From NCBI GenBank assembly GCA_017545665.1, contig JAFWKQ010000040.1, forward strand, positions 1 through 64,000: a DNA stretch of 64,000 nucleotides. Direction: 5' to 3'. Both the position numbers and the translations under genes were made by a program. The notes under the pieces are model-generated. The model saw only the letters and a list, made by a program, of their open reading frames with translations. It did no database searches and was not told where the DNA came from. This document shows, one piece after another, positions 8,557 through 28,420 of this stretch (positions are counted from its first letter, which is position 1; the number at the start of each line of letters is the position of its first letter). This DNA is from Atopobiaceae bacterium (GTDB lineage Bacteria > Actinomycetota > Coriobacteriia > Coriobacteriales > Atopobiaceae).

Positions 8557-11379
8557 CTAGTCGGCAACCACCACTGCGCTGCTTCCCTCGGCGCTCGCCT
8601 TCACCTCAATGCGATTCTCCATGCGCTTCTCCAGCTCCTCCACGTGACTGATAATGGCCACCAGGCAATCGCCGGACGCAAGGTCGGAAAGCACGCGCAT
8701 AACCTGCTCCAGCGAATCCGGGTCGAGCGATCCGAAGCCCTCGTCTATGAACACGGTGTCCAGGTGCATCCCACCGGCGCGCTGCTGGGCGTAGTCCGAA
8801 AGACCCAGAGCCAAGGAGAGCGACGCCTCAAACGACTCACCGCCCGAAAGAGACGACACGGGACGCCGCTTGCCCGTGGCATAGTCCACCACGTCAAGCG
8901 AGAGGCCTCCCTTTCCGCGACCCTCTCCCTCGGCATTGCGCACCAGCTGATAATGACCATCCGACATTACGGATAGACGCCTGTTCGCACAGATGACGAT
9001 CTGGTCAAAGTAGAATCCAAGTACATAGCGCTCGAACGAGATGCGATTGGTGCCCGATGCCTGTCCTCGCGCAATCCGCGAGACGCGATCGGCTGCCACG
9101 ACGGCACGCTCCAAACCAGGCAGCTGAGCCGCGCAGGCACGCATCTCCTCCAAGATGCGCTCGTTCGCATCCACGCGCGCGTGCGCCAAGCGAACTTCGC
9201 GATCGGCGTTCTGCTCTGCAGCCTGTGCAGACAAAAGCGCGCGCTTCTGCTTGTTCGTATTGGGCGCATCGTCGCCCTCCTTCACGCCCAGCTCCTCCAA
9301 ACGGGCAAGGCGCTCCTCTACCGCCGTGGCAGCAGATGCCTGTTCGGTGAGTGCCTGAGCATTGGCCTCGCGCGCCTTCTCGAGCTCGAGCTCTATGTCT
9401 TTTCGACGGTTCGAAAGCGCCTCAAGCTCCCGCTTTGCCTCATCGCGCGACGCATAGCGCAAACTCGACGCCACCTCGTCCACACGCGCTTGGGCAGCAG
9501 CAAGCTCCACCGAAACCTCCTCGCACGCACTTACCAACCCCATAAGCTCACTACGCACGTCGGCAAGGTCCTTCTCGTCCCGTTCGAGCTGTTCGCGCAT
9601 TTTCGTAAGCTCGTTGAGCTTTCGTTCCAACGCCTTAACGCGCACGTCCTGCTCGGCCTGTCGATCGCGCAATGCCTGACGAAGCTCAGCCACCTTTGTG
9701 CGTGCCCATCGCTCCGCATCGTCTTCCAGTGCCGTCAGTGCCGTACCAACCATATCGGAAACAAGGGAAAGCGTTGCCCTCGAGCGCTCGTTCGTCTGCG
9801 ACTGAAGCGCGAGGTAGGCATCCTGGCTGCTGTGCAACCGCTCGTCGGCCTGCTCTTGATGGGTGCGCGCAACCATGAGTGAGCTTCGGTCGGGCGCAAC
9901 CTGCGTAGGCTTTACCGGACTCGGGTGCCTTGTGGATCCGCACACGGGACATGGCTCGCCCTCAACGAGCGACGAGGCCACAAAGGCCGCGTCGTCTGCC
10001 ACAAGCGCCAAAAACAGATCCTCAGCCTGTATGCGTGCCTGCTCCGCCTCATCCTGCAGGCGCTCGACCTCCCGTGCGCGCGATGCGAGCTCATTGCGCC
10101 GTTGGGCAAGGTCCGCAAGGTCTGAGACCACTTGCTGGGCTTGCGCGGACTGACGCTTGAGCTCCGCGCTTTGAGAGCGGGCCTGTTCCAGCTGACCGGC
10201 AATGTCTTGGGCAACCGCAAGCTCAACGCGCGCGTTGGCAACCGACTCTTCCAACTGCGCCCGCCTGCCTTCCAGGGCTTGCCGTTGCGCGCCGAGCTCG
10301 TCGCCCCTCTCTTGTGCCTTCTGCACCTCTGCGCGACGCCGTTCCAGCTCCTCGTAGCGTGGGAGCGACTTGGAGAGCTCGGCCTCATCGGCCGTAAGCT
10401 TTCCATGGTGCAGATCGTAATTCGCACTTGCGTCCTCTAGGGCCTTGTCGAATACCCTCACATGCGCATTTGCGCGCACGAGCTTCCGCTTGGCCTCTTC
10501 TGCCGCTCCTAACGCCTCGGCCGCCGCCTCGGCAGTCCGCAAGCTCATACGTGCCTCTAGCGTCGCATCGCGCGCTGCGTCGCGCACTTCCTCCGCCTTG
10601 GCTATTTCCTCCTGCTGACGCGCCACGATGGTTTGGGCTGCCTCAATGCAGTCCTTTGCCGCAAGCGCAGGCTGGGATTGCGAAAGCACACGTTGGGGCT
10701 TGTCGTGAACAACCACGATTCCACGGTCGAGCCTTTGTATGCAACGCTCAAACTCATTGCGGGCCAAATCGAGCTTCTCATGCGCGTCTTTGGCAGCCTC
10801 GGCTAGCTCCGACCCAAATCGATTGAGTTCCTCCGTCGAAAAAATCTTACGCAACACAACCTCGCGCTCAGTTGGATCGGTGCACAAAAGCTCCCTGAAC
10901 GCACCTTGCGCGATCATGGTTACCTGGCGGAACTGCCCGTAGCTCAAGCCCAAGAGCTCAATTACCGCCTCGTTTACCTGGCGCACGTTGTTACCCAACA
11001 CTACGTCACCGCAAGTGAGTTCCGCCGCAGCCGGACGATCCACCATGGTCGAGGCGCCGTCCTTCCCTGCTCGCTGACGTGCGAGCTTCTGCTGCGGGCG
11101 CCGCGTGACCACATACGTCTTGCCCGCATGCTCGAAGGTTAGGCTCACCTCGGTGGGCGTGTTCTCGTCGGCAAAGTCGCTGCGCAACGTGCGTACGTCC
11201 CTGTCTCCCGAGGACTCCCCAAACAAGGCAAAGGTAAGCGCGTCAAACAGCATCGTCTTGCCCGAGCCAGTGTCGCCGTAGATAAGGTAGAGCCCGTGGT
11301 CGCCAAACTTCGAGAAGTCCAGGTCCACATGGCCGGCATACGGTCCAAAGGCAACAAGCGACAGTTCGAGCGGCCTCAT
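8557..11379 (-). CDS. sbcC: Exonuclease SbcC (Rad50-like ATPase)
   Basis: A 940-residue SMC-like ATPase of the SbcCD nuclease, which cleaves DNA hairpins and protein-blocked ends. The Walker A motif GDTGSGKT is near residue 36. Long coiled coils flank a zinc hook, EPCPVCGS, near residue 476. The signature LSGGESFEASLSLALGL is near 843 and the Walker B motif DTVFIDEGFGSLD near 878. The start overlaps the stop of sbcD by four bases (ATGA). Its substrate preference is relevant here because this genome carries many long palindromes, which SbcCD would be expected to attack during replication. Confidence 0.96.
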   Translation of the reverse strand: MRPLELSLVAFGPYAGHVDLDFSKFGDHGLYLIYGDTGSGKTMLFDALTFALFGESSGDRDVRTLRSDFADENTPTEVSLTFEHAGKTYVVTRRPQQKLARQRAGKDGASTMVDRPAAAELTCGDVVLGNNVRQVNEAVIELLGLSYGQFRQVTMIAQGAFRELLCTDPTEREVVLRKIFSTEELNRFGSELAEAAKDAHEKLDLARNEFERCIQRLDRGIVVVHDKPQRVLSQSQPALAAKDCIEAAQTIVARQQEEIAKAEEVRDAARDATLEARMSLRTAEAAAEALGAAEEAKRKLVRANAHVRVFDKALEDASANYDLHHGKLTADEAELSKSLPRYEELERRRAEVQKAQERGDELGAQRQALEGRRAQLEESVANARVELAVAQDIAGQLEQARSQSAELKRQSAQAQQVVSDLADLAQRRNELASRAREVERLQDEAEQARIQAEDLFLALVADDAAFVASSLVEGEPCPVCGSTRHPSPVKPTQVAPDRSSLMVARTHQEQADERLHSSQDAYLALQSQTNERSRATLSLVSDMVGTALTALEDDAERWARTKVAELRQALRDRQAEQDVRVKALERKLNELTKMREQLERDEKDLADVRSELMGLVSACEEVSVELAAAQARVDEVASSLRYASRDEAKRELEALSNRRKDIELELEKAREANAQALTEQASAATAVEERLARLEELGVKEGDDAPNTNKQKRALLSAQAAEQNADREVRLAHARVDANERILEEMRACAAQLPGLERAVVAADRVSRIARGQASGTNRISFERYVLGFYFDQIVICANRRLSVMSDGHYQLVRNAEGEGRGKGGLSLDVVDYATGKRRPVSSLSGGESFEASLSLALGLSDYAQQRAGGMHLDTVFIDEGFGSLDPDSLEQVMRVLSDLASGDCLVAIISHVEELEKRMENRIEVKASAEGSSAVVVAD

Positions 11380-20984: not shown

Positions 20985-21047
20985 ACCTTTTGCGTGCGTG
21001 CCAAAACACTACGATTGCGTAGGCCCTGGAGGTCATTGCAGCGCACC

Positions 21048-22028
21048 CTATCCGAACTTCTCTTTGAGCTCCTCAAAGGACACGTGACTGTCGAGGTCGG
21101 GAATCTCAACCTTGCCATCGATGACGTCAAACAGAAAGGTAGATATGTTCTCTATGGTAAGCTCGTTCGATTTTTGGCCGCCTGACCCACTGAGCACATA
21201 CGTCTTCTGCAGCTGCGTGCCCAACGCACCTGCCGAAAGGAGAAAGTGATTCTCCAACCTTTCGGGATTGACAAGGTCTGAGGCCAAGACGCGCGTTGCC
21301 ACCGAATAGCTATTCACAAGAATCCTCGACCCATCGTCTTCGACGAGCACAGTCCTCTGGGCGTCGGCGTCCAAATCCATCCGAACCTTCCCGCTTTCGG
21401 ACGATTGCTCGCTCCGCTTAAAGAGCGCGCCAAGATCTGCGAGCGCCAAACAGTACAGCTCCGTATTGGGCATGACCATAATAGGCTCTACAGAAAAAGC
21501 GGTTGGGTATAGGAGGTAATTGATGCCCGCCAAATCAACCTGTGGAGCGTGAAATGTCCCTATCATCGCGTTTGCCGCAGAAAGACTCTTCGAGGCGAAC
21601 GCGCCACCTAAGACGACACAGTTCTCAAGCTCTATTTCACTACCATAGAGGCTCCCCCCAACAAAGCAGTTCTTCAGGCGAATCGTCGTTGCGTTGACGT
21701 CCGCACCGAACAGCACGCGTCCGTCCATGACGAATGCCGAAACAGTTCCCGAACAAGCCACCGCCTTTCGAAACACGATTTGCTTGCTGGCGGTGTTCTT
21801 CACATGCAGCTCGTTGCTTGTGTATACGGCATTCGCAAACTCCACGGGCCCATCGTCGATTTCCAGAGCCCATGCGTAAGCTCCGCCCTCCACTACCACG
21901 TTTCCCCGAATGTGTACCGAGCGGTTCAACTCGCTTGCCCGCTCGGGAAGGATTCCGCCTCTTACGACACAGTCCGAAAGTCCCACCTGGTTTTCGGAGC
22001 CAACCCTTACCTCTTTAAGCTTTGCCAT
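21048..22028 (-). CDS. Predicted beta-helix protein, last gene of the SPFH cluster
   Basis: A 326-residue protein I cannot assign to a named family. Its first 200 residues show short repeating units with alternating hydrophobic residues and glycine turns (VHIRGNVVVEGG, RLKNCFVGGSLYGSEIELENCVVLGG). These suggest a right-handed beta-helix of the bactofilin or polymer-forming cytoskeletal kind. No signal peptide or membrane segment is seen. The C-terminal part is mixed alpha/beta and acidic. The ATG at 22028 has a GGGGGAG site; a TTG at 22067 is less likely. It follows the 354-residue gene by 43 bases and closes the six-gene operon. Confidence 0.7.
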   Translation of the reverse strand: MAKLKEVRVGSENQVGLSDCVVRGGILPERASELNRSVHIRGNVVVEGGAYAWALEIDDGPVEFANAVYTSNELHVKNTASKQIVFRKAVACSGTVSAFVMDGRVLFGADVNATTIRLKNCFVGGSLYGSEIELENCVVLGGAFASKSLSAANAMIGTFHAPQVDLAGINYLLYPTAFSVEPIMVMPNTELYCLALADLGALFKRSEQSSESGKVRMDLDADAQRTVLVEDDGSRILVNSYSVATRVLASDLVNPERLENHFLLSAGALGTQLQKTYVLSGSGGQKSNELTIENISTFLFDVIDGKVEIPDLDSHVSFEELKEKFG

Positions 22029-22071
22029 ATCACTCGCTCCCCCAATGAAGTTACGCAATTCCGACAATCGT

Positions 22072-23136
22072 CTACTGCTTACTATATGCCGTGGTAATTG
22101 GAGACTGTTTGTACATGTTCATTATCTGAGCGCTTACGCGACTGCGGTACGTGCGTTCCTCCTCATTGCACGCGTTGGCGGCATAGTCCTCAACGTTTTG
22201 GAGGAAGTACCGATCCACCGCCACCTTATCTTGCTGCGACAGTTGCTGCCAAGTGGAAGCGTCCGCTTTTGCAACCTCGGCAATGACCTGTCTTTTGGCA
22301 CTCCCTTCCCTAAGACCCACCGACTCATGGATGACTATTCGCTGGAGCGAGTTTGCAATATCGGTTTGGACGGTATATACGACCGGCATGAAGAGAAACG
22401 TCTCGTCCGTCTTGGGAAGCATTATGCTTTGGGTCGCATTAGCGTAATCCACGACGAAACCGCACACACGAGCAAGTCTCTTTAGTGAATCCGCCACGCA
22501 TGCCTTTGCACGAGCGCACAGGAGCTTAAGGGACGTTGCGTTTGTATCCCATGCATATACACTCGCACGCGCCGCAGTTTGAACGAAAGGGTCGGCAATC
22601 TCGTCACCCATCGCCTTACCGCTAAGCTGGAATGCCGCCTCGTCAAGCTCTCTTACTCGCCGCTCCAGCTCGCGATCGAGTTCGGTGAATATGCGCAAGT
22701 AACGCGCCTTGATGGCGTGGAAGTCGTCATTCATCTGCTCGTGAATGCGTGTGACCTGTTCCCCCTGTTTGGCAATAAGACCAGCGGTTGACCTCACACC
22801 GCTCCCAAATTCTGATGCCTGCGCCGAGAGCTCACTGCTTAGCACACTATAGAACCCATTGATAGCCGTTTGCGAGATATCCTTTGCGGATTGCTCAATC
22901 TGAGCAACCTGCGCCGCCTCTGTGGCCGACAGCACTCCCGCCACTACGGCAAGCGCGGCATCGGCGCCATTGACGCTTTTGTCAAAGGGATCGGTGTTAA
23001 CCGTGACGTTAATTTGTACCGGAACATCGCCCTCATAATGCATGCGATGCATTTTTCCATGTTTGCTCGCAGGCACGAAGCCACTCACGGAACCAGAATA
23101 ATGAACGCTGGCATTGAATTGCTTGCTGTAGCTCAA
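22072..23136 (-). CDS. SPFH-cluster helical protein, paralogue B
   Basis: A 354-residue protein of no recognised family, clearly paralogous to the preceding gene (23133-24119). Both have a V-x-V-x-TDP strand near the N-terminus, then a hydrophobic helix, a GFY motif, and a shared long helix (131-168 here) with the pattern DFxxIKARYxxxFTxLDR then RVRELD. Paralogue B has about 45 extra N-terminal residues. The start is TTG at 23136. It overlaps the TGA of the previous gene as TTGA and has a GGGAGGAG site nine bases away, so translation is coupled. No signal peptide is seen. Coiled-coil assembly is likely. Confidence 0.7.
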   Translation of the reverse strand: MSYSKQFNASVHYSGSVSGFVPASKHGKMHRMHYEGDVPVQINVTVNTDPFDKSVNGADAALAVVAGVLSATEAAQVAQIEQSAKDISQTAINGFYSVLSSELSAQASEFGSGVRSTAGLIAKQGEQVTRIHEQMNDDFHAIKARYLRIFTELDRELERRVRELDEAAFQLSGKAMGDEIADPFVQTAARASVYAWDTNATSLKLLCARAKACVADSLKRLARVCGFVVDYANATQSIMLPKTDETFLFMPVVYTVQTDIANSLQRIVIHESVGLREGSAKRQVIAEVAKADASTWQQLSQQDKVAVDRYFLQNVEDYAANACNEEERTYRSRVSAQIMNMYKQSPITTAYSKQ

Positions 23137-24119
23137 CGCACATCTCCTCCCTGCATCGGAATCGATGGGCTGGCAACTGCACCTGGCTGCGTTTGCGGCA
23201 CTTGTTGACCCGGTTGAACATTGGTAAACGAGGCGTCAAAGAGGTTAACCATGGTTTGGGAGACACGGGCATCCAGATTGCCCGTCGTGGTTTTGTTTAC
23301 GAATGACTCCCGAATTGCCGCGATATCTCGTTGGCTGGAACCTTTTAGCTCGTTTTGCCCACGTCTCACGCCCGCAACGAGGTTTGCCTGAGTCTGTGGC
23401 GGCAGGCCCGCCGGAGTCTGCACTTGAAGGGTGAAGGTGTTGGGAGCTATTTGGCTTTCGGCAACCGCATACACAACAGGAACACATTCGAATGGCGCAC
23501 CTGAAGGAACCGAGGGCTCTAGCACCGATTCTGTCAGGCGCGTATAGCTTATAATGTGTCGCGTACCTTCGCTCAGCTGTTCGATTGACCCCACAACCTT
23601 CTTCTTCAGAAGCGCGTTTGACGTCTTGAGCACCGCATTGTCGATGTCGGAAGCATAGAAGAATGCAGCTGGCACATCATGGCACTGCCGAGCGGAAATG
23701 AAGGCGTTCCGTACCTGTGCAAGCGCCATCGCGTCTTGGTCGAGCTCTCGAACCCTCTTCTCCAGGCTTCGGTCCAAGCTAGTGAACAGCTTGAAGTATC
23801 GCGCCTTAATGCGATTGAAGTCGCCTTGCATCTGATCATGCGTGTGGTCTATAGCCTTTGCGGTCTCCATCATAGAACCTGCGCGACTGTTCATTGTGCT
23901 TGCGAACTGCGCTATACGCTGGCTAAGACGCGAGCGCAGAAGCATGTAGAAACCACTGTCAATGCTTTTACAAATTGCGGCCGACGCCTTCTTCTCAGAC
24001 GCAATGACGGCGGCTTGCATGGCCGTAACGGCCGTTCCAACCAGCCCGACGCCCGCGGTCACGTCGTCAATCTTGCGTGCCATAGGGTCAGTGTCTACCG
24101 TAAAGTCAAAATGCGCCAT
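23133..24119 (-). CDS. SPFH-cluster helical protein, paralogue A
   Basis: A 328-residue protein, paralogue of the next gene. It starts with the short strand FDFTVDTDP, then a hydrophobic, glycine-rich helix at about 21-42 that could insert in or lie on the membrane, the GFY motif near 56-58 and the conserved charged helix at 93-130. The C-terminus is proline/glutamine-rich and probably disordered. A strong AGGGG site precedes the ATG at 24119. It is 14 bases after the 647-residue gene and overlaps the next gene by four bases. No biochemical function can be given. Confidence 0.7.
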   Translation of the reverse strand: MAHFDFTVDTDPMARKIDDVTAGVGLVGTAVTAMQAAVIASEKKASAAICKSIDSGFYMLLRSRLSQRIAQFASTMNSRAGSMMETAKAIDHTHDQMQGDFNRIKARYFKLFTSLDRSLEKRVRELDQDAMALAQVRNAFISARQCHDVPAAFFYASDIDNAVLKTSNALLKKKVVGSIEQLSEGTRHIISYTRLTESVLEPSVPSGAPFECVPVVYAVAESQIAPNTFTLQVQTPAGLPPQTQANLVAGVRRGQNELKGSSQRDIAAIRESFVNKTTTGNLDARVSQTMVNLFDASFTNVQPGQQVPQTQPGAVASPSIPMQGGDVR

Positions 24120-24133
24120 GTCACACCCCTACC

Positions 24134-26077
24134 TTATGCGCCAAAATTGCCGCTGGCGAGCGTCCGAATATGTCCTTCCGCCTGCGCCTCGAGATTGATG
24201 GCAAAGTCTTCATCGAGCTTTTGGGAAGTTACGGGCTCAGGAGGGACGTCACCCTCCTGCGCAAGATAAGGACTTATGGAAACCAGGCGCCTGCGTCGCG
24301 GTTCGAGCTCACGCACGTTTGAGACTGCTCGTGCTACCTCACGAGCCTGATAGTCTCGCAGAGACGCCTCGTAGTACTCAACGTGTCCAAACTGCTCCGC
24401 ACAGCGATCGATGTCTTCGCGTATTCGTTCCATGAACTCCATAAATTCGGCTTGTTTCGCACGGGCTTGGTCGGCTTGTAACTGGAACCCCGCAATGACC
24501 TCGGCCTCGTTCTTGGCTTCTTGGACCTCAGCGTCTTCCAGGTTTCCCGAAGCCTTCATGCTCGCTATGGTTGCGCTCTGCTGCTGATAATTGGTATAGC
24601 TCTCAACGTACTCTGCGTAGGCCTCATTCATGCGCTGAATAAGCGCATTGGCCTCCGCGCGATTCCTGCCGAAGAAGTCCTCTGTGTCGCGATGCCATTG
24701 GTTAAGGTAGTCGGTCTTCTGGTTTTGGATATCGCTATAAATGCGCAACCGCTCAACCCGATTCTCCTGCATAAGATTTTGGATAACGGGCATGAGGACC
24801 TCCGTGTCCACCTGATGCATACCAAAGGGCATCGCAGTTCTTGAGCCATTGTCTGCAATCCAAGTGCCCGAGAACAAGTCGAGTCGCACCCTCGAGCTCT
24901 GCTTGAGCGAGAAAGGCTTGTAGTCGTTTATCTCGTCGCCATAATTGAACGTGGCCGTGCGAATACGCTCGATCTCTTCGGCCTCAAGTGTAGGAGAGTA
25001 CTGGTCAAAAGACGCCTTGAGGACGTTTTGCATAACATGGGCATAGTAGTTCGTAATCTTTGACATGCTTTCGGTGCGGGAACGCGAGAGCATGTCCACA
25101 CCCTGGGCAAGTTGGCGCATGACCTTAACAAAGAATGCGATGTCCCCGCTGCCATCCGATGCCGAGCGCTGGTTGAGCGCTCCCAGAGATGAGAACTCCT
25201 TCGTCTTCGCCTCGGCTTGGCTCGCATCAAAAACAGGGACTATGGGGTAGTTTGCGGTGTCGTTGGTGGCATATTCGCTCAGCATCCGATATCGTTCGCT
25301 GCCCGGATGCACCACAGGAACGCTCACCGAGACATCTCGACTATCGCCAATCAGATAGCGGACGCTACGAACCTGTCGATCGATAGATCCCATGTAATCG
25401 TGCAGGGTCACATCCTGGACGGACGTGGAGTAGTCCGAGGTATCAACCTGTTCGACCTCTTCGTTCGACTCCACCGCCGGCATCGTTTCCATTTGCCCTT
25501 GCAGACTATCCATGGCCTCCTTGAGTTCCCCAGGTTGATTTATGAGCGTAAGTGAAAACTCGGTCTCTGGCACATCTCCCGTGAAGTCGACCACGTAGCT
25601 TCTATTGCCAGCCTTTACGTGTCGTGCCACCGGTACGTACGCAACCCCAACACTCTGCACCCTATAATCACGGCGAATCGACTGATGTTGCGCCTGCAGC
25701 GCAGCCAACCGCTTCGAAAACTCGATGGAATTCGTCTCTTCCGCCTTCTGCGTATTGTAGAGCCTGAACGCCAGGATGCCGGCAGTGGCCAAGGCGCCAA
25801 TGAGGAAGATGATCGCAAAAGGGCTCACGAAAACCGTGAGCAGCAAGAGGATAAGTGCTGCAGCTCCGCCCGCCACAAATACGATAACGAGTTTTTTCTT
25901 TGCCTCACCACTCTTAGAGGCTGCTTGAATCCGCTCTTGTCCCACTTCCGATATTTGCTGCTCTAAGGCCATCTCTTCCGAAACGACCTTCTCTGCAGCC
26001 TGACGATAGTAGTCGAACAGCACCTGCGCCTGGTCCTGATAGATGTCCGCCGAATTGGGAAAGACCTTTCCAGTCAC
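24134..26077 (-). CDS. SPFH-cluster large membrane protein with coiled coils
   Basis: A protein of 647 residues of no recognised family. The N-terminal 60 residues form a charged helix. Two adjacent transmembrane helices lie at about 63-83 and 85-105, separated by a proline. A large soluble region follows, including a long coiled coil (about 460-600) rich in A, E, Q and R. The topology puts both large parts on the same, presumably cytoplasmic, side. The GTG at 26077 was chosen because GGAGG lies eight bases upstream. An ATG at 26101 would add eight residues but has no site, only a hairpin, before it. It is the third gene of the cluster. Confidence 0.7.
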   Translation of the reverse strand: MTGKVFPNSADIYQDQAQVLFDYYRQAAEKVVSEEMALEQQISEVGQERIQAASKSGEAKKKLVIVFVAGGAAALILLLLTVFVSPFAIIFLIGALATAGILAFRLYNTQKAEETNSIEFSKRLAALQAQHQSIRRDYRVQSVGVAYVPVARHVKAGNRSYVVDFTGDVPETEFSLTLINQPGELKEAMDSLQGQMETMPAVESNEEVEQVDTSDYSTSVQDVTLHDYMGSIDRQVRSVRYLIGDSRDVSVSVPVVHPGSERYRMLSEYATNDTANYPIVPVFDASQAEAKTKEFSSLGALNQRSASDGSGDIAFFVKVMRQLAQGVDMLSRSRTESMSKITNYYAHVMQNVLKASFDQYSPTLEAEEIERIRTATFNYGDEINDYKPFSLKQSSRVRLDLFSGTWIADNGSRTAMPFGMHQVDTEVLMPVIQNLMQENRVERLRIYSDIQNQKTDYLNQWHRDTEDFFGRNRAEANALIQRMNEAYAEYVESYTNYQQQSATIASMKASGNLEDAEVQEAKNEAEVIAGFQLQADQARAKQAEFMEFMERIREDIDRCAEQFGHVEYYEASLRDYQAREVARAVSNVRELEPRRRRLVSISPYLAQEGDVPPEPVTSQKLDEDFAINLEAQAEGHIRTLASGNFGA

Positions 26078-26106
26078 GTCTGCATCCTCCAAACTCAACA
26101 TGGCGA

Positions 26107-26122
26107 AGGCGAAGCTTCGCCT
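26107..26122. other. Perfect 16-bp palindrome in the SPFH operon
   Basis: AGGCGAAGCTTCGCCT lies in the gap between the four-helix membrane protein gene and the 647-residue gene. With adjoining GGCGA it could form a small stem in the mRNA, or be a binding site of a dimeric regulator. Confidence 0.4.
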
Positions 26123-26133
26123 CTACGACTCAT

Positions 26134-26868
26134 TCAGTTTCGTAAGGCCTTGCGCTGCTCTATGAGCAGCAATGCGCTTTGCGCCTGATCGAGCGCTGCC
26201 CTTGCGGATTGGGCGCTCAGGACTGGGTTGCTCATGGCCGCGTCCAGCTCATCTAAATATGCGGCAGTCTGCTCCTCCAGCGCATATGCCTCGGGGGTGT
26301 GGAGCGGGCTCGTGTAGCGCAGCTCCTCCGCAATGCGGTTTATTGCCTTCACGAGATCCTTTTGCGTTTGTTCCTGCGCGTCGAAGTGGTTGAGGCGCAC
26401 CGCAAGACGCTCAGAGGTGGTACGGAGACGCTCTATGGATCCGCGCATACCCGTTTCGTATTGACGGACATTCTCCACATGACTCGATGCGGCCATGGCG
26501 GAGTACGCCCCCAGCGCCAACCCAAACAACCCAACCAATTGGGCCACTACCAAGACGGCGAGCGGCATTGCGCCCAACACCGCCAAAACGATAACCACGA
26601 CCGTAAACAGGGCATAGATTCCCAATGCCTTGTAATAGATGCCCCAACCGATCACCCTGCCACTCGAGAGCCCCTCAATGGAGTCGCCAACAAGAAGGGG
26701 GCCAAACGACAGCGCATAGAGCACCACCAGGTCGCACGAGATGAACACGGCTGCCGGCGTGCCCGCAGGCGGCTGGGGCATAAGGAGTATGAGACCCAAT
26801 ACCAAAATGGCCATGCCCAAGGCAAACAGCGCGATCTTTATGCCGATCGAAATGCCTTTGCTCCCCAT
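26134..26868 (-). CDS. SPFH-cluster four-helix membrane protein
   Basis: A 244-residue protein with four predicted transmembrane helices in the first 130 residues (around 10-30, 39-60, 76-98 and 103-126). A cytoplasmic helical domain follows (130-244) with heptad-like spacing and many E, Q and R residues. I do not recognise the family. Of two close ATGs, the second (26868) is six bases from the AAGGAAGG site, whereas the first (26874) touches it, so 26868 was taken. It follows the SPFH gene by 37 bases. Confidence 0.7.
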   Translation of the reverse strand: MGSKGISIGIKIALFALGMAILVLGLILLMPQPPAGTPAAVFISCDLVVLYALSFGPLLVGDSIEGLSSGRVIGWGIYYKALGIYALFTVVVIVLAVLGAMPLAVLVVAQLVGLFGLALGAYSAMAASSHVENVRQYETGMRGSIERLRTTSERLAVRLNHFDAQEQTQKDLVKAINRIAEELRYTSPLHTPEAYALEEQTAAYLDELDAAMSNPVLSAQSARAALDQAQSALLLIEQRKALRN

Positions 26869-26905
26869 ACGCATCCTTCCTTAAAGTAGGCTCTTCAACC
26901 CGCGC

Positions 26906-28117
26906 CTATCCAAGGCGCATCCCGCACTGCGGACAGAACTTCGTGCCCAAGCCAACGATCGCCCGGCATCTTGGACACGTGGTGTCGGAGAAGGCCGCGT
27001 TGTCCGACGCGAGCTGCGCGCCGCACGTAACGCATCGGTGTGCTCCCTTTTGGTTGTCGGAGCCGCAAACGGGGCAGGGATTGTACTCGTTGCCACAACT
27101 TGGGCAAAAGCGCGAGGTGGTTGCATAGGGCTTTCCGCAGTTGGCGCAAAACACCTGGGCGCGCGGCTGCATCCCGCCTGCCTGCATCCCGCCTACCGCG
27201 CCTTGCTGGACGGGCGCCTGCGAATAGCCAGGTCCCGCATTGAAGCCCGTTTGCGGCGGCTGCTGCATGGTTGCTTGACCCATGCCCTGGGAGCCCCCGC
27301 CAAACATTCCGGTCATCATGGCCATGCCCAGAATGCCCATTTCCTGCCCGCCTCCAACGGCACCCTTAGCGACGTCGAAGGACTGACGCTGCTGCCAGGT
27401 GTATCCGGCTATGTTCTGCGCGCTGCGCTCCGTAAGAGCGTCCGATATTTTCCTTCCCGCCTCCGAGGTCGTGTCCACATCGATTGAGGTGATGTAGAAG
27501 CCCGTGAGCCTGAGGCCATACTCCTCCCAGAACTCCGCCATCGGCTGGCCAATAAAGGTGCTCAGCTGATCGAGCTGCATGGATATCTGCGTTATGCCCA
27601 CCCGATTGGCCGTCATGTATGAGGCTATTGCGCTGTTGGTCTTGGATATGAGCGGACCCATGAAGTGGTCGGTGAGCTGCTTGGACGTAAAGGTGTGCAG
27701 GGTACCTATGAGCTTTACCAAGAACTTTTCGGCATCAGACACCTGCACGCCATACCGACCGGCCGCGACTATGGGCACCATGGCGCCGTAGTCCGGATCC
27801 ATTATGCGCATGGGGGTCGTTTTCCAATCGATGGTGAGCGGCATGGCCTTGTTTACGAACCACACCTCCGCAAAGAAGGGATTCGTGCCGCCAAAAGGAA
27901 TGCCGTAGAGATTCCTGAGCAGAGGCAGATTCTCTGTGGTGAGTTTGTGGCTGCCCGGACCAAACTTACCGATAATCTGACCTTTGGAGAAGAACACCGC
28001 CTCCTGGGACTCCCTTACGATGAGCCTCGTCGCCGTGCTGAGATTCGACTCCTCGAAGCGGTGGGCATAGACGTCATTTGTTTGTGGAGACCATTCGACT
28101 ACGTCAATGAATGCCAT
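26906..28117 (-). CDS. SPFH-domain protein with C-terminal zinc ribbons (YdjI/virion-core-like)
   Basis: A 403-residue protein. Residues about 25-230 form an SPFH (stomatin/prohibitin/flotillin) domain of the 'virion core protein' type: IVRESQEAVFFSKGQI, then FGPGSHKLTTENLPLL and LTGFYITSIDV. A Gly/Met/Gln-rich linker (about 250-325) follows. The C-terminus has three zinc-ribbon modules built from CxxC pairs (CANC/CPSC, CPVC/CVTC, CPRC/CPQC). Relatives include B. subtilis YdjI, which works with YdjG/YdjH at the membrane in a PspA-linked stress response. Here the partners are different. It is the first gene of a six-gene operon. The ATG at 28117 was chosen because the conserved region starts right after it. 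Confidence 0.85.
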   Translation of the reverse strand: MAFIDVVEWSPQTNDVYAHRFEESNLSTATRLIVRESQEAVFFSKGQIIGKFGPGSHKLTTENLPLLRNLYGIPFGGTNPFFAEVWFVNKAMPLTIDWKTTPMRIMDPDYGAMVPIVAAGRYGVQVSDAEKFLVKLIGTLHTFTSKQLTDHFMGPLISKTNSAIASYMTANRVGITQISMQLDQLSTFIGQPMAEFWEEYGLRLTGFYITSIDVDTTSEAGRKISDALTERSAQNIAGYTWQQRQSFDVAKGAVGGGQEMGILGMAMMTGMFGGGSQGMGQATMQQPPQTGFNAGPGYSQAPVQQGAVGGMQAGGMQPRAQVFCANCGKPYATTSRFCPSCGNEYNPCPVCGSDNQKGAHRCVTCGAQLASDNAAFSDTTCPRCRAIVGLGTKFCPQCGMRLG

Positions 28118-28235
28118 ACTGTGCCGCCCTTTTCTTGGGATTCTGATAAACGTTCTTATCCTATCACCAATACAGGACAACAATCCATGAGTTCGGCTGA
28201 TGTAACAAATGGGCGGTCCATAGGGGCTCTCGCAC

Positions 28236-28420
28236 CGCGCCTGCGCCGCGCCCCGTAAGCGGCGACTCACGAAGTGAGCGAGCGAAGCGAGCGCGGAGCC
28301 TCTTGCGGGCCCGTGCCCTGCGCCTGCGCCGCGTCCCGCAAGCGGCGACTCACGAAGTGAGCGAGCGAAGCGAGCGCGGAGCCTCTTGCGGGACGCGGCG
28401 CAGGTGCAGGCGCGTGTCGC
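28236..28420. repeat. Double family A palindrome (two tandem core repeats in complementary arms)
   Basis: Two identical 42-base cores (28259-28300 and 28342-28383) start GCGGCGACTCACGAAGTGAG and end GCGCGGAGCC. The second is flanked by arms TGCGCCTGCGCCGCGTCCCG and CGGGACGCGGCGCAGGTGCA (one mismatch). The first has a related but diverged left arm, so the unit looks tandemly duplicated. It lies in the divergent gap between the SPFH operon and gpmA. Apart from the repeat and gpmA leader, 28118-28539 shows no gene. Confidence 0.9.

Follow-up and report, generated by a model that had tools for sequence, protein, structure and literature searches.

Comparison of sequences from related genomes indicated that the six-gene operon at 21048–28117 on the minus strand of the window (the whole 64,000-nt stretch of DNA that was analyzed) is a horizontally mobile cassette, which encodes an SPFH protein, a 4-TM membrane protein, and four further proteins. 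The best explanation, for which we regard the case as evenly balanced, was a mobile conflict system that is anchored in the membrane and most likely directed against phages, in which four new partners are added to an SPFH/4-TM base. Protection against envelope stress is the main rival.

Organization of the operon and its SPFH/4-TM base

Reading of the ORFs in the window gave six consecutive genes on the minus strand at 21048–28117, separated along the operon by 31, 56, 14, −4, and 43 bp, in agreement with the six tightly spaced genes described in the initial annotation. The negative spacer was a 4-base overlap of gene 4 with gene 5, where the TTG start codon of gene 5 overlapped the stop codon of gene 4. 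Two start codons were corrected by comparison with homologues. The start of gene 3 was set at GTG 26077, which gave the previously annotated length of 647 residues (the ORF itself reaches ATG 26101 and 655 aa), and that of gene 6 at ATG 22028, an invariant Met among the homologues, which gave 326 aa and not 339 aa. In the libraries searched, a match to a known family was obtained for gene 1 alone, and genes 3–6 matched nothing convincingly.

Gene 1 (26906–28117, minus strand, 403 aa) matched Band_7_1 (PF13421) in Pfam with an E-value of 9.6e-37 and a score of 127 bits against a cut-off of 24, and its C-terminal part matched Zn_Ribbon_1 three times, confirming the earlier assignment as an SPFH protein with three zinc ribbons. 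All 12 of the 12 Cys residues of the ribbons were invariant among six homologues, and hydropathy analysis revealed no hydrophobic or TM segment in the protein. In gene 2 (26134–26874, minus strand, 246 aa), hydropathy analysis showed a hydrophobic N-terminal half with about 4 TM segments followed by a helical, probably cytoplasmic tail, as expected for the four-helix membrane protein that had been proposed. When the profile of gene 2 was aligned with that of the 4-TM partners of the SPFH genes carried by phage contigs and by genome G010, described below, the two matched over 190 columns (hhalign A11 vs A14, probability 96.7, E=3.6e-10). Gene 2 proteins of distant cassettes shared 27–44% identity. 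Judged by these alignments, gene 2 belongs, as a divergent representative, to a 4-TM family whose genes repeatedly lie immediately downstream of an SPFH gene; the earlier description of the partners as unrecognized thus stood for genes 3–6 and was given up for gene 2.

Genes 3 to 6

The product of gene 3 (24134–26077, minus strand, 647 aa) has an N-terminal TM helical hairpin and long predicted C-terminal helices. The two-helix hairpin anchor of the initial annotation was recovered by hydropathy analysis as one strong hydrophobic hairpin at residues 67–116 of the 655-aa ORF, and the hairpin region 20–140 was the sole well-predicted region in the AlphaFold model. No convincing Pfam match was found in nine members of the gene 3 family, nor any sequence match in the PDB. 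Gene 4 (23133–24119, minus strand, 328 aa) encodes a helical protein, and gene 5 (22072–23136, minus strand, 354 aa) a protein for which a low-confidence model predicted an N-terminal beta hairpin and long helices. These two had been described as paralogous, and they shared 28% identity, with a profile–profile E-value of 1e-44. Gene 4 was assigned to no family in Pfam, PADLOC, or PHROGs. The AlphaFold models of gene 3 (pLDDT 44) and gene 5 (mean pLDDT 56.5) were too poor for fold comparison; matches of the gene 5 model to PDB and viral folds had low Z scores or were at chance level and were set aside, and a resemblance of its N-terminal hairpin to beta-barrel pore stems (Z about 3) was too weak to carry meaning. 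A probe sequence for a presumed gene 5 homologue in Bacillota matched nothing and was given no weight.

The sequence of gene 6 (21048–22028, minus strand, 326 aa) contained repeats of 16–17 residues, such as RLKNCFVGGSLYGSEI and ELENCVVLGGAFASKSL, from which a beta-helix fold is plausible but unproven. In three of the eight members (G046, G623, and G637, from the other two genera that carry the cassette), gene 6 ended in a C-terminal zinc ribbon resembling the ribbons of the SPFH protein (hhalign probability 89), a similarity that connects the first and last genes of the operon. Genes 3, 4/5, and 6 showed no detectable homology with one another in profile comparisons.

Mobility and insertion site

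In the window, the cassette separates two housekeeping genes, glnA and gpmA. In ten relatives (G001, G002, G003, G005, G006, G008, G009, G010, G014, and G015), these genes were neighbors only a few hundred bases apart, and G011, in which gpmA is partial, was consistent with the same empty junction. One of the ten was G001, in which GlnA was 99% and Mfd 96% identical to those of the source of the window. In G001, collinearity with the window ended at 21019 and resumed from 28419, and this genome thus contained the empty site; from this junction, the inserted segment, comprising the whole cassette, was placed at approximately 21020–28220. Four of the ten relatives (G005, G008, G014, and G015) carried the cassette at sites other than glnA–gpmA. 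Between two loci of different species (L021 and L022), 87% identity extended over the operon and continued for about 80 bp on its upstream side and 18 bp on its downstream side, beyond which the flanks were unrelated. The empty glnA–gpmA junction in ten relatives and the 87% identity of L021 and L022 within unrelated flanks indicated that the cassette is mobile. Operon identity also departed from that of Mfd in both directions, with 81% for Mfd and 60% for gene 3 between G005 and G014, and 74% for Mfd and 84% for gene 3 between G046 and G623. Neither an integrase nor a transposase was seen within the cassette.

A tandem 83-nt palindromic element resembling REP/MITE repeats was observed upstream of the operon, at 28224–28410; in the comparison with the G001 junction, the tandem palindrome was placed at 28224–28389. 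Relatives of this palindrome numbered at least 44 copies in this genome and 42–43 in each of G001 and G004, with few or none in other genomes, and one copy of the family lay at the empty glnA–gpmA junction of G001. In G012, the junction was filled by about 2.6 kb of other DNA (L123, G012:C1:109566-112162). The glnA–gpmA intergenic site is suggested to take insertions repeatedly.

Conservation and selection

An identical order of the six genes was found in seven complete loci (L017, L019, L020, L021, L022, L064, and L065), and L018, a locus cut short at the ends of its contig, agreed with it. Five of the complete loci and the truncated one came from the first sample, and the other two lay in genomes of another genus. 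The initial annotation had allowed that the order might be conserved in no relative, and this proved not to be the case. The cassette ranged over three genera of one Coriobacteriia family: it was carried by 5 of the 16 genomes of the genus, one of them with two copies, by a single genome of a second genus, and by two of a third. Outside the family, genes 3, 5, and 6 were found neither in plasmids, phages, and IMG/VR nor in 296 genomes of the phylum, the latter scanned with the gene 5 profile, which gave two weak local matches only. This survey covered mainly Actinomycetota chromosomes and reached other phyla through one contig scan; because chromosomes beyond Actinomycetota were barely covered, genes 3–6 may be more widespread than listed here.

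The dN/dS ratio ranged from 0.06 to 0.52 for each gene in all estimable pairs, and in these pairs purifying selection acts on every one of the six. Genes 1, 3, and 6 were well conserved, and genes 2, 4, and 5 diverged fastest. Pairwise identities correlated at 0.94–0.98 among genes 1–5 and at 0.77–0.82 between these and gene 6. The six genes were shown to move and evolve as a unit.

Related modules on phages and plasmids, and neighbors of the cassette

Relatives of the gene 1 SPFH protein were found on plasmids and phage contigs, among them a similar SPFH locus on the Butyrivibrio plasmid pNP21 (L027). A homologue of gene 2 followed directly after the SPFH gene on four phage contigs from IMG/VR (L145–L148) and in G010, a genome of the same genus as the window; the contigs come from metagenomes or represent predicted proviruses, and the short ones may be chimeric. 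In L145, genes for a tail sheath, a tail tube, and an XkdN-like protein immediately preceded the SPFH/4-TM module. In L147, the module lay between an SPP1-type portal gene and structural-looking genes, adjoined by Abi_2 and a serine recombinase. In L148 (8111–11044), the SPFH/4-TM genes were followed directly by a HEPN-like protein (PF18736, slightly below the cut-off) and by a protein combining zinc ribbon, TPR, TIR_2, and DUF6273. The G010 module (L052, G010:C75) was 92.5% identical to that of L147 across 4 kb, including adjoining DNA. These modules resemble the cassette in their homologous genes 1 and 2, kept in the same order, in their zinc ribbons, and in their residence on mobile elements. 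They differ from it in an SPFH identity of about 30% to gene 1 on the phage contigs and in their later genes, which encode ZnR-TPR, HEPN-like, or TIR-containing proteins in place of genes 3–6. A zinc-ribbon TPR protein as a later gene was not found in the cassette, and genes 3–6 were unrelated to the ZnR-TPR proteins. By eye, a YfbU-like gene was also noted in L147. In L146, a 548-aa protein (9098–10744) adjoining an SPFH/4-TM/ZnR module appeared AbiH- or SIR2-like by eye (VGNGLDIQLGG) but matched nothing in Pfam. Close to it lay helicase and PLD-like genes.

Around the six-gene cassettes, restriction genes adjoined two of the eight loci. The G005 copy was flanked by a Type IIG enzyme, DUF262/Orf5, a Type III restriction enzyme, and nuclease/helicase-like genes, and the G623 copy by a Type IV restriction enzyme. 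The remaining loci, including that of the window, lay among housekeeping genes or genes not recognized as defensive. A control of 400 kb gave three weak local matches to the same queries; it was small, and because its queries were drawn from the flanks it is suggestive only. HerA adjoining L017 was judged ordinary. Elsewhere in the genus, a Band_7_1 SPFH protein at G000:C67:78958-79623 (L054) ended in three CxxC ribbons. The genes upstream of it resembled, by eye, those for a TerB-type protein, a BrxD-like ATPase, and a DEAD helicase.

Comparison with PspA–YdjGHI and other explanations

The initial annotation had drawn a possible envelope-stress role from the analogy with B. subtilis YdjI. On such a reading, the SPFH/4-TM pair would mark damaged membrane, genes 3–5 would form coiled-coil polymers replacing PspA, and the cassette would spread as protection from antimicrobial peptides or bacteriocins in the habitat; we consider this unlikely. 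The analogy is supported by the report that B. subtilis YdjI, which lacks a membrane anchor, depends on both YdjG and YdjH for membrane localization, and that PspA foci in turn depend on YdjI (PMC8581546). Like the B. subtilis pspA-ydjG-ydjH-ydjI operon, the cassette encodes a TM-less SPFH protein with a C-terminal zinc motif and has genes for putative membrane anchors; unlike it, the cassette has neither PspA nor a TPM match, contains four genes without an assigned family, and is mobile. No protein of the operon matched PspA (PF04012) at E ≤ 1 in Pfam, and none of the six matched the YdjH-like TPM domain at E ≤ 1. The earlier statement that the operon contains no YdjG, YdjH, or PspA held at the level of Pfam family matches. 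PspA was above the cut-off in 0 of 16 genomes of the genus, compared with 9 of 14 control genomes, so that the PspA–YdjI model of B. subtilis cannot apply directly, and with no TPM match among the partners the rest of the YdjI pathway is missing. This absence of PspA and the hairpin and long helices of gene 3 would suit a substitute for PspA, but genes 3–5 showed no similarity to the PspA profile in Pfam. Another Band_7_1 SPFH protein was observed in every genome of the genus, whereas the cassette was present in only 5 of 16, so that it does not serve a core function. The phage-borne relatives, moreover, adjoin Abi_2, TIR, and HEPN-like genes. The likeness of the SPFH protein to YdjI stands, and the gene order, TM segments, and SPFH match upheld a conserved membrane-associated multi-protein operon built on it; the envelope-stress role itself was weakened by the PspA result.

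A surface, secretion, or organelle-like scaffold serving a niche trait and not immunity, with gene 6 as a bactofilin-like polymer and gene 3 as its anchor, seemed very unlikely. Several components are membrane or coiled-coil proteins, and gene 6 resembles bactofilins (PF04519) in its short repeats, the length of which suits a beta-helix. It differs from them in having no significant profile similarity: gene 6 itself had no PF04519 match at E ≤ 1, the best among eight members was a weak one at E=0.08 in a single member, and comparison with Coriobacteriia bactofilins gave hhalign probabilities of 0.2–0.4 against 92 for the positive control, so that gene 6 found no support as a bactofilin. No enzyme or cargo gene was recognized, and the cassette moves between unrelated sites. 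Slightly less probable still is a remnant or selfish phage-derived moron block of no benefit to the cell, for which the SPFH/4-TM modules in phage contigs and the 92.5% identity of the G010 module to one of them could be cited, since the six genes are under purifying selection and no phage structural gene was recognized by eye adjoining the six-gene loci.

A proposed conflict system on an SPFH/4-TM base

A role in conflict is favored because the cassette is mobile and patchily distributed, because its genes 2, 4, and 5 diverge fast, and because phages carry sister modules. The initial annotation had left defence only as a role that could not be dismissed; the mobility of the cassette and the presence of these modules in phage DNA, next to genes for Abi_2, HEPN-like, and TIR proteins, raised it to the leading hypothesis, with anti-phage activity itself as a prediction. 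Several observations stand against it. The six proteins gave only weak, chance-level matches to PADLOC 2023 and PHROGs, and no catalytic effector domain was recognized in them; six of the eight loci had no recognized restriction gene nearby; the phage modules have only genes 1 and 2 in common with the cassette, at an SPFH identity of about 30%; and mobility and patchiness would also fit envelope-stress or antimicrobial-resistance cassettes.

In a conflict system of this kind, SPFH oligomers of gene 1 would dock on the membrane via gene 2, as YdjI does via YdjG and YdjH, and would form a membrane platform together with the hairpin/coiled-coil protein of gene 3. Genes 4 and 5 could assemble on this platform as a hetero-oligomer, and gene 6 may act as a structural adaptor or polymer held by the zinc ribbons. 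Genes 2, 4, and 5, which evolve fast, might sense as the trigger either a change that the phage causes in the membrane or one of its proteins, and assembly would then halt infection, perhaps via changed membrane permeability.

More tentatively, SPFH/4-TM pairs may be the membrane-sensing base of a broad and previously undescribed modular anti-phage class with swappable TIR, HEPN-like, or ZnR-TPR effectors, the effector of the present cassette being a new multi-protein membrane assembly of four unassigned families. In the open literature, we found neither an SPFH-based defence system nor a paper relating SPFH proteins and bactofilins. To our knowledge, SPFH proteins are universal membrane organizers whose roles in bacteria are largely unknown. 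A mobile block that joins four proteins without family assignment to a base in common with TIR-partnered phage modules makes the question of SPFH proteins as immune sensors testable on one operon.
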